A stretch of DNA of 64,000 bases from Streptomyces fagopyri (GTDB lineage: Bacteria; Actinomycetota; Actinomycetes; Streptomycetales; Streptomycetaceae): positions 3,410,001-3,474,000 of the forward strand of contig NZ_CP045643.1 of NCBI RefSeq assembly GCF_009498275.1, written 5' to 3'. Positions 12,039 through 46,263 of this stretch are shown here, piece by piece. Numbering within the stretch: the first letter of the stretch is position 1; each line of letters begins with the position of its first letter. The notes below the pieces were generated by a model that saw only the letters and a list, made by a program, of their open reading frames with translations, was not told where the DNA came from and ran no database searches. The translations under genes and the position numbers were made by a program.

Positions 12039-13229
12039 TCAGTTACTGCGTCGCGTGACAAACTCCGCGAGTGCCAGGAGACCGCCCGCGGCCTCCGGGT
12101 CGGGGATCGCCCGGGACAGCTCGTGCATCGCCCGGGACATCCGGTCGGCCGCCTGGAGCTGCGCCCAGTCGCGGCCCCCCGCCCGCTCCACGGCGAGCAC
12201 CGTGCGCTCCAACCCCCCTTCCTCGTAGGGAACTCCGTACAGTTCGGCGAGTTCCGTCGCCGCCGGGGTGCCGGAGCCGAGCGCGGCCACCACGGGCAGG
12301 GACTTCTTGCGGGCGACGAGGTCCGCCCCGGCCGGCTTGCCGGTGCGGCTCGGGTCCCCCCAGATCCCGATCACGTCGTCGATCAGCTGGAAGGCGAGCC
12401 CGGCCTCCCGGCCGAACGCGTCCAGTGCCTCGACGTCCTCGTCGTCCGCTCCCGCGTAGAGCCCCCCGAGCGCGCAGGCGCAGCCGAGCAACGCGCCCGT
12501 CTTCGCCTCGGCCATGGCGAGGCACTCGTCGAGGGTGACCTCGCCCGGGCCGCGTTTCTCCATGGCCGTGTCGGCGTGCTGTCCCTCGCACAGCTCGACG
12601 ACGCAGGACGCGAGCCGGGCGGCGGCGGCCGGGGACGCCGGGTGCGGGTCCTCGGCCAGCAGCCGCTGGGCGAGCGCCTGCAGGGCGTCCCCCGCGAGGA
12701 TCGCGGCGGCGTCGCCGAACACGGTCCACGCGGTGGGCCGGTGTCTGCGGGTGGTGTCCCGGTCCATGACGTCGTCGTGCAGCAGCGTGAAGTTGTGGAT
12801 CAACTCCACCGCGGCGGCGGCCCGTACGGCCGACGCGTGCTGCCCGCCGAGCGCTCCCGCGGCGGTGAGCACGAGGGCGGGGCGGATCGCCTTGCCCGCG
12901 TTGCCCGCCGCCGGGGTGCCGTCCGCGTGCTCCCAGCCGAAGTGGTAGAGCGCGACCCGGCGCATCGAGCCCGGCAGCGAGTCGATGGCCCTGCGCAGCT
13001 CGGGGTCGACGGACGCCCGCGCGCGCTCCAGGATGGCCGCCGCTTCCTGCCCGTCGGGCGGGGCAGGAGGAACCTGTTGATGCATGGGCCTCCCGTCCAT
13101 GGGCCTCCCGGCAGAGCCCCGTCCGGCCAGGGACTCCTCCGCGCTCTGCCGGGGCTTCGGTCCCCCCGGCCCACCCGGCCTGCCCGTCCGGTCCGGCGGG
13201 AACACCGTGGCCGGTGTCGGGGAGGTCAC
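12039..13229 (-). CDS. Polyprenyl diphosphate synthase, probable encapsulin cargo
   Basis: This trans-isoprenyl diphosphate synthase has the first Asp-rich motif HDDVMDRD and the second motif DDVIGIWGD typical of Streptomyces short-chain synthases; an aromatic residue (F) five positions before the first motif suggests a C15-C20 product. The catalytic domain begins near [10 protein letters not shown] (ATG 13085, 348 residues). An in-frame GTG at 13229 overlaps the shell stop codon as GTGA and would add 48 Pro/Gly/Arg-rich residues ([20 protein letters not shown] onward). I annotate the long form because family 2 encapsulin cargo carries such disordered N-terminal domains. The ATGs at 13100 and 13085 each have a good GGGAGG site and remain possible. 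It supplies allylic diphosphates, possibly inside the shell. Confidence 0.88.
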
Positions 13230-14632
13230 CGCCAGCGGCCGATCTCGACGTTCTCCAGAATGCCGAGGGCGTCCGGGACCAGGACCGCGGCCGAGTAGTA
13301 CGCCGTCACCAGGTAGGAGATGATCGCCTGTTCGTTGATGCCCATGAAGCGCACCGAGACGCTCGGCTCGATCTCGTCCGGGATGCCCGCCTGCTGGAGC
13401 CCGATGACGCCCTGTTCCGCCTCGCCGGTGCGCAGGGCGATGATCGAGGTCGTACGGGCGTCGCTGACCGGGATCTTGTTGCACGGGAAGATCGGGACAC
13501 CGCGCCAGGTCGGGATGCGGTTGCCCGCGATCTCGACGCTCTCCGGGACGAGCCCGCGCTTGTTGCACTCGCGGCCGATCGCGGAGATCGCGCGCGGGTG
13601 GGCGAGCAGCAGCTTGGTCCCGCGCCTGCGGCTGAGCAGTTCGTCGAGGTCGTCGGGGCTCGGAACGCCGTCGTGCGGTTGCAGCCGCTGGTCGTACTCG
13701 CAGTTGTTGAGCAGTCCGAACTCCCGGTTGTTGATGAGCTCGTGCTCCTGGCGTTCCTTCAGTGCCTCGACGGTGAGGCGGAGCTGCTGCTCGGTCTGGT
13801 TCATCGGCTGGTTGTAGAGATCGGCCACGCGCGTGTGCAGGCGCAGCACCGTCTGGGCGATGCTCAGTTCGTACTCGCGCGGCGCGCCCTCGTAGTCCAC
13901 GAAGGTGCCGGGGATGTCCTCCTCTCCGGTGTGGCCGGCCGCGAGGTCGATCTCCTTCTCGCCGTACTTGTTGGTGCGCTGCTCAGGAATCGCCCGCAGC
14001 TGCTGGAGGTGAGTGCGCAGGGACTCGGCGCGCTCCGCGACCTGCTCCAGGTCCTGGCGGGGCAGCGTGAGCACGGTGACCGCGGTGACGGCGCGGGCCG
14101 TGTACTCCCAGATGGCGTCCGGGTCGATGAGCGCCTGCTCGCCGAAGTACGCGCCGTCGGCGAGAACGCCGAGGACCGCGTCGTCGCCGTAGGGGCCCGT
14201 ACCGATCTTCTCGACCTTGCCGTGCGCGAGCAGGAACACCTCGTCGGACGGACTGCCGAACGAGGCGAGCACCTCGCCCGGCGCGAACTCCCGCTGCTGG
14301 CAGCGCTGGGCCAGCTCGCCGAGCACCTCGTGATCCTCGTAGGACCGCAGGACGGTCAGTTCGCCGAGCTCGGCGGGGATGACCTGGACGCGGTCACCGG
14401 TCTTGACGAACGTCACCCTGCCGTCGCCCACGGAGTAGCTGAGCCGCCGGTTCACGCGGTACGTGCCACCCTGCACGTTCACCCACGGGAGCATGCGCAG
14501 CAGCCATCGTGAACTGATCTCCTGCATCTGGGGTGCGGACTTGGTGGTGGTGGCCAGGTTCCGCGCGGCCGATGTGCCGAGACTCTGCTGCGGCCTGCCC
14601 TGACCCGAACGGACCTCTTCGCCTACCGACAT
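13226..14632 (-). CDS. Family 2B encapsulin shell protein (cyclic-nucleotide-binding domain inserted)
   Basis: The 468-residue protein is of the EshA/MMPI type. Residues 1-90 form an N-arm and the first part of an HK97-like shell domain. Residues about 95-205 are a Crp-type cyclic-nucleotide-binding beta-roll ([31 protein letters not shown]). Residues 215-468 complete the shell fold ([55 protein letters not shown]). Such proteins assemble into icosahedral compartments; ligand binding may gate pores or cargo. It is followed, with a 4-base overlap, by a polyprenyl synthase. ATG 14632 has GGGAGG 10-15 bases upstream. S. coelicolor has two such proteins, EshA being one, from memory. Confidence 0.93.
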
Positions 14633-43591: not shown

Positions 43592-44962
43592 TCAGCGCGG
43601 CAGGGTCCTCAGCAGCAGCCGGTGCGGCCGCAGCGTGATGCCGACGCGGGTCGCGTCGTTCGACTCCGACGCCTTCTCCAGGCGCCACCGGGACGCCACC
43701 GTCGCCGTGATCAGGCTGAGCTGCGCCATCGAGAAGTGGTCGCTCGGGCACTTCCGGTTGCCCACACTGAAGGGGCTCATGGCGTACTTCGGAACGTCCT
43801 TGGCGCGTTCCGGAAGCCAGCGGTCGGGGTCGAAATCCAGGTGCCGGTCGTACGACCGCGGGTCACGCTGGATCGCGTACGGGCTGTAGACGATGTCGGC
43901 ACCGGCCGGAATCCGATAGCCGCCGAGCTCCGTCTCGGTCACCGCACGCCGCGTCAGAATCCAAACCGCTGGACGCAGCCTCATCGCTTCGACGACGACA
44001 TTGTTCGTGTGCGACAGCTTCCGGACATCGTCGAATGCGACGGGCCGGTCCCCGGCCACGGATTTGACCTCCGCGGCCACCCGGTCGGCGTGTTCCGGGT
44101 GTTCCACGAGGACTTGCAGCAGCCACATGATCGTGGACGCGACGGTTTCGCTGCCGGGGGTGAGTATCGCTACGACTTGGTCGTGGATCTCCTGTTCCCC
44201 GATCGGCTCACCGTTCTCGTTCTTCGCTTCCAGCAAGGCCGTCAGCAAATCGTCCGGCTTTTGACCAGATGCGCGTCGTTCGGCGACGATCTCGTCGACC
44301 AGGACATGCAAATCGGCCAATGCGCGGTCGAATTTGCGGTTGGCCGGAAGCGGCAGCCGATAGAGCGGGCCCGCCGGGATCACCATGCGCCGGTACATGC
44401 CGCGGAAGACCGTGGCGAGCGCGATGCTGAGACGCTCGGCCCGCTCGTCCATGTACTCCCCGCGCAGCAGGCAGCGGGCCGCGATGCGCACGGCGACCCG
44501 GAACGACTCCGCGGTGCAGTCGACGGGCCGCCCCGACCCCATGCGCTCCGCGAGGGCCCGTGCCTCCTCCTCCATGACCGGGCCGTACTCGGGGATGATG
44601 TCGAGCCGGAACGCCGGCTGTATGGTGCGCCGCTGCCGGCGGTGCCGGGGCCCGTTGGCGGTCGCGACGCCCTCCTTGCCGAGCAGGCCTTCCAGGGACT
44701 CCCAGAGCGGTCCGTCGATCTTGAAGTCGGGGCTCAGCGCCATCGCTCCGGTGAGGGCGGGCGAGGTGAGCGCGTACACCGTCTTCGGGCCCAGCCTGAG
44801 CCGGACGACCTCGCCGTGCTCACGCAGCCTGGCGAAGAGACCCAGCGGGTCGCGGGCCAGCCGCCAGCCGTGGCCGAGGACGGGGACACCGCCGCCGGCG
44901 AGGGGCGGGGCGGGCGGCTCCGGCGCCCCGGGGTGCGCGGGCTTCACTGACTCGACGGTCAT
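43592..44962 (-). CDS. cyp170A1: Cytochrome P450 CYP170A1-like (albaflavenone synthase)
   Basis: The 456-residue P450 has [18 protein letters not shown] (I helix), [14 protein letters not shown] (ExxR), [10 protein letters not shown] and the heme loop [17 protein letters not shown]. The ATG at 44960-44962 overlaps the terpene synthase stop as ATGA. In S. coelicolor the enzyme oxidises epi-isozizaene to albaflavenols and albaflavenone and has a second, terpene-synthase activity making farnesene; [13 protein letters not shown] lies in a plausible position for that site. The heme loop has S and D after the Cys, unlike common P450s, as in CYP170. Confidence 0.93.
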
Positions 44963-46044
44963 GACTCACCTGCCGCTTCGTTGTTGACGTACGGGGGTGT
45001 GGATCGGTCGTCCCAGCTGTCGACGGTGTACCGGCCGGACTCGTGGTGGAACCAGTACACGGAGCTGAACCAGTTCCGCATATTGCCGAGGCAGGACTTC
45101 ACGGCGACGCTCAGTTCCTTTCCGCGCACCGAGCCGTCCGCGAGCGCGTCGGCGAACTCGTCCAGTTCACCTTCCGCGTCGATGAATTCGGTGACGCATT
45201 TCTCGACGCGCTGACGCATTTCGGTGACGGCATTCCCGAGAGTCAGCCCCTCATGATGAATGAGACTGATTCCGAGATTGTGCACCTCGTCGCCCGCCAT
45301 TTCCTTGGGGAGCGAACAGAGGTCGTTGTACCAGGCGGCGAATTCCTGACTGAGCAGGGCCGCCCGCCGGTATACGGAGCTGTTCCGCACGGAGGCGGGG
45401 AGTTCACAGCCCGCGCTCGGCTCCAGCAGATCGGTCCAGATCCAGTGGGCGAAGGTGAGCCGCCGGAGTTCGAGATATTCCTCGACGGTGGGCACGATTC
45501 CGGAGGTACGGTTGCGGAACTCCCGGTCGTACGCCTCGATCACCGCGTGGAAGTGCCGTGCGAAGCGCGCGTTCCACTTCCGGCCCAGGAACGAGTACAA
45601 CCGCAGCACACTGTCCGCGAACCCCGCGACCAGGGGATCCGGGTGGTGCAGGTGTTCCCGGGGGGAGTCGAGCGCCTCATGGAGCTGGAACCTGAGCCTC
45701 CGCCAGGCCGCCGGCCGGCCGTGGACGACGTCCCGGTCGTGCCGGTCGTCCCAGACGAAGAACCACGCGCTGTAGTCCGCTATCGCCTGTATGACCTCGT
45801 CGGGCGCGCCAATGTAGTAGCCCGCCATCAAGTCCGTGTAGCAAAGGCCGTCGGCATATTCCTGGACCGTGTCGGCGGCCATGAGCCGTTTTTCCCGGAG
45901 CCACGAACGTGTGTTCTCCTGGAGCCTGGGCCAATACGGATGCAGTTGACGGGGAAACTCGGCCTCGATCACCGGGAGTGAGAGCGCCGGTGGAACCGCG
46001 ACCACGGTCGGTGTCGATGAAGTGCCGTGTGAGAAAGCATGCAC
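44959..46044 (-). CDS. cyc1: epi-Isozizaene synthase
   Basis: The 361-residue class I sesquiterpene cyclase, the same length as the S. coelicolor enzyme, has the Asp-rich motif [12 protein letters not shown] and the NSE motif [15 protein letters not shown], with [20 protein letters not shown] at the C-terminus. It cyclises farnesyl diphosphate to epi-isozizaene, the precursor of albaflavenone. GTG 46044 is preferred (GAGAGGGG upstream, MHAFSHG start); a TTG two codons earlier is possible. It is coupled to the P450 gene. The upstream stretch 46045-46263 holds only its promoter region. Confidence 0.96.
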
Positions 46045-46263
46045 GAACAAACCCCTCTCAGCCGCCAGTTGACGTCACACCCCTCTCGTCGTGCCGGGCG
46101 TGCGCCGTTGCGTATCCCCGCACTTCCCATTCAGCACCACAACTGACTGTTCTGGGAATGGATTTGCTCCACTCACTACCGGAGAGTGCCGAGAATCCCC
46201 CCTCGCATGACCGAATATGGATCATTAGAGGAGAGGAGGGGATCGAACGTGCGTCGCACATAC

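Follow-up and report, generated by a model that had tools for sequence, protein, structure and literature searches.

The polyprenyl synthase (PT) of a two-gene Family 2B encapsulin operon in Streptomyces fagopyri is probably translated by termination-reinitiation from a GTG that overlaps the stop codon of the shell gene, or from a second GTG eight codons on, and not from the ATG at position 13100; as judged by comparison with related sequences, the enzyme would then begin with a disordered N-terminus derived from a tag. Positions are those of the window, i.e. the whole stretch of 64,000 nucleotides that was analysed. The features discussed are the following:

13226..14632, minus strand: Family 2B encapsulin shell gene, 468 aa, start MSVGEEV (NF041163, PF19307, PF00027, 9bhu)
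14030..14293, minus strand: cNMP-binding-fold insertion of the shell, residues 114-201 (PF00027, 65.4 bits)
13235..13987, minus strand: HK97-type shell domain, residues 216-466 (PF19307, 450.7 bits)
12039..13229, minus strand: cargo gene for the polyprenyl synthase, 396 aa if taken from the GTGA overlap (NF041169)
13226..13229, minus strand: GTGA stop-start overlap, most likely PT start (phase kept in 22 of 22 overlap loci)
13203..13205, minus strand: alternative in-frame GTG start (direct reading; eight codons past the first GTG)
13177..13205, minus strand: decayed copy of the hairpin that relatives have between the two genes (alignment; fold z = -0.32)
13152..13229, minus strand: residues 1-26, Pro/Gly-rich, aligned to the non-coding spacer of relatives (L008, L087, L024)
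13101..13151, minus strand: residues 27-43 (17 residues), degenerate remnant of the N-terminal motif (alignment; p=0.22)
13098..13100, minus strand: ATG start of the 353-aa database form (P0003 starts here; homologous to an internal Met of relatives)
13083..13085, minus strand: second ATG, 348-aa form (348 aa in 10 among 120 listed homologues)
12234..12902, minus strand: polyprenyl synthase catalytic domain (PF00348, 198.9 bits)
12762..12776, minus strand: first Asp-rich motif DDVMD, residues 152-156 (sequence comparison)

Shell gene and cargo-type enzyme

Read directly, the shell ORF (14632-13226, minus strand) stops at the TGA 13228-13226, and the PT stop codon is the TGA 12041-12039. Profile searching gives the shell 770.4 bits against NF041163 (encap_f2b), over the curated cut-off of 400, and the adjoining, overlapping enzyme 497 bits against NF041169 (f2_encap_cargo4, cut-off 450) with residues 63-395 matched, the full name of the latter being “family 2 encapsulin nanocompartment cargo protein polyprenyl transferase”. 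The preliminary description of the operon as a Family 2B shell with a cargo-type polyprenyl synthase is supported by both scores, and the shell-PT system is already known and named by these two NCBIfam entries. The cNMP-binding-fold insertion precedes the HK97-type domain, which is the Family 2B layout, and the MSVGEE start is present in those shell genes of relatives that were displayed for comparison. In the 8.88-Mb single-contig genome, one Family 2B shell match lies over the cut-off in the profile search. Among solved structures the shell comes closest to 9bhu (E 1e-198, aligned over 15-467 of 468 aa), which we take to be the S. griseus EshA/Sg_Enc Family 2B shell with 2-methylisoborneol synthase as cargo; from this homology we infer assembly as a T=1 shell. 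The cargo of the 9bhu system is thus presumably a terpene cyclase and not a PT. Such cyclases carry a GPTGLGT region (PMC8346489).

Near its N-terminus the shell carries LGTSAAR (residues 18-24, window 14561-14581, minus strand), and LGTxAAR occurs in 91 of the 93 shells with a located N-arm (103 looked at). The terpene-cyclase cargo regions described in PMC8346489, the sole paper found to contain the string GPTGLGT, have the consensus GPTGLGTSAAR and share LGTSAAR with the shell arm, and geosmin-synthase-like proteins of three other genomes have GPTGLGTSAAR (two) or GPTGLGTSAAQ (one) near their C-termini. Shell arm and cargo tag may share one docking site. On the plus strand, antisense to the shell gene, Rfam RF02735 (Sernc350, Saccharopolyspora sRNA 350, antisense) matches window 14094-14590 with 155 bits, as it also matches L021, L031 and L070; the match may simply reflect conserved coding sequence.

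D152, D153, M155 and D156 of the first Asp-rich motif of the enzyme are invariant across 44 aligned sequences, and the second Asp-rich position reads DDVIG here and DDLLG in 3nf2, a putative polyprenyl synthetase and the solved structure closest to the enzyme in sequence (residues 63-394, E 4.4e-74). This alignment begins at query residue 63, so that the extension is without counterpart in it. Residues before the first Asp-rich motif of such enzymes indicate product length, and those before DDVMD suggest that the product is probably C20. In a structure model of the 396-aa form, 254 of the 396 residues have a pLDDT of at least 90, and residues 1-57 fall below 50 with the exception of residue 26; 57-62 residues of low pLDDT precede the core if the protein is read from the GTG, and 14-19 residues if it is read from ATG 13100.

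The genome has five PF00348 matches, PT included (four at 174-210 bits, one at 33). Its four PF19086 matches, in three genes, were weighed as further cargo, and a geosmin-synthase-like protein (L145, C1 about 2529322-2531028) was rejected as such since it is without the C-terminal GPTGLGTSAAR tag, which fits a single, PT-linked shell. About 30 kb from the encapsulin operon, at window 43592-46050 on the minus strand, lie an epi-isozizaene synthase (NF045483, 730 bits) and a bifunctional albaflavenone monooxygenase P450 (NF051859, 846 bits), a pair with a gene overlap of its own at 44959-44962.

Start arrangements among relatives

The GTG 13229-13227 is in frame with the PT, and from 13229 to 13085 there are 48 codons without a stop, as the preliminary description had correctly located and counted. 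On their own, an open frame, a GTGA and Pro/Gly/Arg content were not accepted as evidence for translation, open frames being common and GTGA/ATGA near-universal. The PT frame stays open upstream to 13568, and the opposite strand carries a 454-aa ORF here too. The GC content of the extension is 80% in the window and 71-75% across the window clade, and proteins encoded by such DNA tend to be rich in Pro, Gly and Arg. The shell gene ends in GTGA in 108 of 121 loci (duplicates included), ATGA in 9, CTGA in 3 and GTAG in 1, and with 117 loci having GTGA or ATGA the overlap is near-automatic and proves little alone. A good Shine-Dalgarno (SD) sequence was sought 5-10 nt upstream of GTG 13229 and none was found; GGGAGG stands 3 nt ahead of ATG 13100 and likewise ahead of ATG 13085.

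From 553 confirmed relatives the 80 best were selected, giving 78 loci plus the window with both shell and PT on the fetched DNA (L011 and L064, with no shell there, were left out), and of 60 loci added 42 had both genes (the other 18, L127-L144, had no shell), for a total of 121. Removal of 15 duplicates left 106 distinct loci, from which L126 (PT 48% identical) and then L115 and L120 were dropped (105 to 103). The last two have CTGA, with GTG/ATG codons at +83 to +95 in L115 and an ATG at +2 in L120.

This comparison reveals two arrangements. In 81 of the 103 distinct operons there is a separate downstream PT start, often an SD followed by ATGGGTGAGTTCATGACGGAG around +105 to +130, which codes for MGEFMTETKQ. 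The phase of this start relative to the shell stop (0/1/2) is 24/43/14, so the PT coding sequence of the spaced loci does not take in the spacer as a whole. The remaining 22 operons are without a downstream start by a pattern that, like the motif described below, was picked by eye after inspecting the alignment, and all 22 are in phase 2 (15 GTGA, 7 ATGA). With L115 and L120 included, there are 24 such loci, again all in phase 2. Under a pattern-free rule that accepts every in-frame ATG accompanied by an SD-like match, 78 of 105 loci count as having a downstream start (phases 21/38/19) and 27 as lacking one (3/5/19), so that the phase-2 excess remains among the start-less loci and is incomplete (19 of 27). 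This rule places L006, L007, L009, L090 and the window among loci with a downstream start, the window because GGGAGG precedes ATG 13100. Seven of the 22 overlap loci have no ATG, GTG or TTG before the core apart from the overlap codon, and among the 103 loci none in another phase was without any start.

On a FastTree phylogeny of the 103 concatenated shell and PT rows, the arrangement label needs at least 10 changes, at least nine of them forced by starred branches, a count that is blind to gain versus loss. The chance of nine random events all keeping phase is (1/3)^9, about 5e-5. A start-less locus might not survive as a gene, and with such survival bias phase preservation bears on use of the overlap start, not on function of the extension. 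The 22 overlap extensions resemble coding DNA, with a mean GC by codon position of.73/.68/.84 versus.79/.74/.76 for 74 spacers. Codon-position differences within the window clade have no clear third-position excess (window vs L005, 8/10/12; L005 vs L006, 1/5/3), and codon-position substitutions there give no signal of purifying selection on the extension. Overall, comparison with relatives supports translation of the overlap extensions.

The N-terminal motif and the spacer hairpin

Shell-linked PTs frequently carry, past MTETKQ, a stretch approximating SPAETLERRSPIG, which is followed by a hypervariable linker and the catalytic domain, and 44 proteins give the consensus xGExxTETxQSPxExxxRRxP. 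A strict pattern, which matched just 29 of 105 loci (17 of the 81 spaced ones and 12 of the remaining 24), was replaced by a test of alignment score against shuffles at p<=0.05. By this test the motif is seen in frame in 20 of the 22 overlap loci and in none of 44 off-frame control translations; it is found in only 39 of the 81 spaced loci, and in none of 14 polyprenyl synthases whose surrounding 4-5 kb, as fetched, contain no shell gene (lowest p 0.22). The motif is not universal, for one clade of spaced loci (e.g. L030, L047, L050, L070) is poor in it and has short tails (14-21 residues). The window's copy is degenerate and scores no better than shuffles (p=0.22) by this criterion, which is our own and unpublished, and L017 likewise scores no better (p=0.86). 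P0001 and P0002, the two best-scoring relatives, retain QSGAETLDGRSPLG in the GTG frame, and their database entries (393 aa) start at the GTG position.

Aligned with L008, L087 and L024, the window and L005, L006, L007 and L009 are seen to lack most of the stretch with SD and ATG, and the flanks align on both sides. Residues 1-26 or so of the extension correspond to the spacer of the relatives, hairpin included, and residues 27-43 to the old tag. ATG 13100 aligns with the internal Met of GRPMD in L024, and GGGAGG is part of those codons; since the alignment with sister loci indicates that the old start was deleted, the annotated ATG appears to be the old internal Met. Stops or frameshifts in close relatives, which had been named beforehand as evidence against the extension, do occur, for example in L008, L024 and L022, but these loci have a start of their own about 115-130 nt past the shell stop and so represent a different arrangement and not a broken extension.

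Many spaced loci carry a hairpin, GTGTYCCCGCCC-loop-GGGCGGGTACAC, shortly past the shell stop. In an alignment of 51 of 64 eligible spacers, hand-picked and trimmed to about 70-96 nt, 86.9% of the cells of this 12-pair hairpin are paired, and covariation is 0.158 against 0.120 in shuffles (0 of 500 reaching it) and 0.120 in the best slid version. Pairs changed on both sides number 3 against 2.9 in shuffles (328/500), slid versions having up to 5, and RNAalifold on the 51 spacers predicts just 3 pairs, so that the hairpin is moderately supported. The fold z over the first 96-101 nt or so is -4.6 in L031, -1.9 in L021, -1.75 in L070, -2.25 in L005, -1.1 in L006 and -0.32 in the window, where shuffled sequence folds equally well. 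A search of 13 genomes for the exact hairpin pattern gave no match, not even at the operon copies, so that it is at most no common exact repeat. The hairpin may limit translation or processing between the shell and PT genes. After it, about 55-100 nt past the shell stop, L050, L070, L021 and others have a conserved stretch like GTACGCGCCCAGCGGCAGCGGAAACGCCACCGTCCGC.

Origin of the extension, alternatives and relation to known systems

The ancestor probably had a separate PT start about 110-130 nt downstream, behind the hairpin-bearing spacer. In the lineage of the window a deletion would have taken out this start and joined the spacer, in frame, with the earlier N-terminal tag, leaving a protein in which residues 1-26 or so are newly coding former spacer and residues 27-43 or so the worn tag, followed by linker and catalytic domain. 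Ribosomes finishing the shell frame would most likely reinitiate at the GTGA to make the 396-residue enzyme, whose disordered N-terminus presumably docks it in the shell, by analogy with the Family 2A cysteine desulfurase. We infer the direction of this change, as we do the use of the GTG in this strain. A broader reading, which we put forward tentatively and rate somewhat short of probable, is that polyprenyl-synthase encapsulins have an undescribed linear loading tag (about MTETKQSPAETLERRSPIG), and that Streptomyces has about ten times rewired the amount of tagged cargo made per shell by replacing a separate start behind a hairpin-bearing spacer with GTGA/ATGA translational coupling, nearly always with the tag in frame; the window clade would then be an intermediate, with the old hairpin now within the protein.

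Were translation to start at ATG 13100 (or 13085) as annotated, the 48 upstream codons would be spacer left open by chance in high-GC DNA. P0003 (353 aa) and 10 among 120 listed homologues (348 aa) begin at these ATGs, each preceded by GGGAGG; the window's degenerate motif, the lack of purifying signal in codon-position differences, the commonness of open frames locally and the pattern-free rule, which gives the window a downstream start, all agree with such a start. However, GGGAGGCCCATGGA is internal coding sequence in the spaced locus L024, which has its own upstream start, and the SD-like match is therefore inherited from the GRPMD codons. A start at the annotated ATG also leaves the phase preservation in 22 of 22 loci and the third-position GC unexplained, and P0001 and P0002 begin at the GTG position with the motif kept in that frame, and we consider it unlikely. 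The earlier suggestion that annotation from an internal ATG hides part of the protein is supported by phase, motif and alignment, by which the ATG forms would lack a translated segment homologous to the motif of many shell-linked relatives.

If the extension is translated from the overlap, it could be carry-over only, read-through spacer plus decayed tag, with loading achieved otherwise or absent. The worn motif of the window, the hypervariable length and sequence of extensions and the short tails of the motif-poor spaced clade fit this, whereas the in-frame motif in 20 of 22 overlap loci of several lineages, undetected in the 14 shell-less paralogues, argues against it, as does the loading of the Family 2A cysteine desulfurase by a disordered N-terminus (PMC8049743); we regard carry-over as rather less probable than not. 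Regulation of the compartment by cyclic nucleotides through the CBD insertion is far less credible. It was part of the preliminary description, is in keeping with the PF00027 match and is raised as possible in PMC8346489, but it conflicts with PMC12407261, which states, with reference to another work, that the insertion of a Family 2B shell that was tested binds no cyclic nucleotide, and that the binding residues are divergent, and the CBD of the window aligns best with three solved Family 2B shell sequences.

Family 2B operons of the PT type have been on record since 2021 (PMC8346489, which reports 900 operons, a disordered cargo N-terminal domain of 50-100 residues and no conserved targeting motif). 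The window operon is like these systems in its CBD-bearing shell, its adjacent polyprenyl synthase and, if the enzyme is read from the GTG, its disordered cargo N-terminus. The present comparison differs from the account in the available text of PMC8346489, where start sites are not discussed, by the motif in part of the Streptomyces set, the spacer hairpin and the repeated switches to an overlap start. The Family 2A SrpI-cysteine desulfurase system is similar in that its cargo owes loading to a disordered N-terminal domain that evolves fast and contains short motifs (PMC8049743), but has no CBD, another enzyme and other motifs. A search of open-licence literature, covering titles and the beginnings of abstracts, returned no experimental PT-encapsulin and no such start switch.

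The 2021 survey found no loading signal among the PTs. Should the tag be real, a reporter could be used to test it, and constructs built on the truncated 348- and 353-aa annotations would not load. Repeated switching of the start would be a natural experiment in shell-to-cargo stoichiometry, and start sites would be corrected for some of the roughly 900 operons reported in this family.
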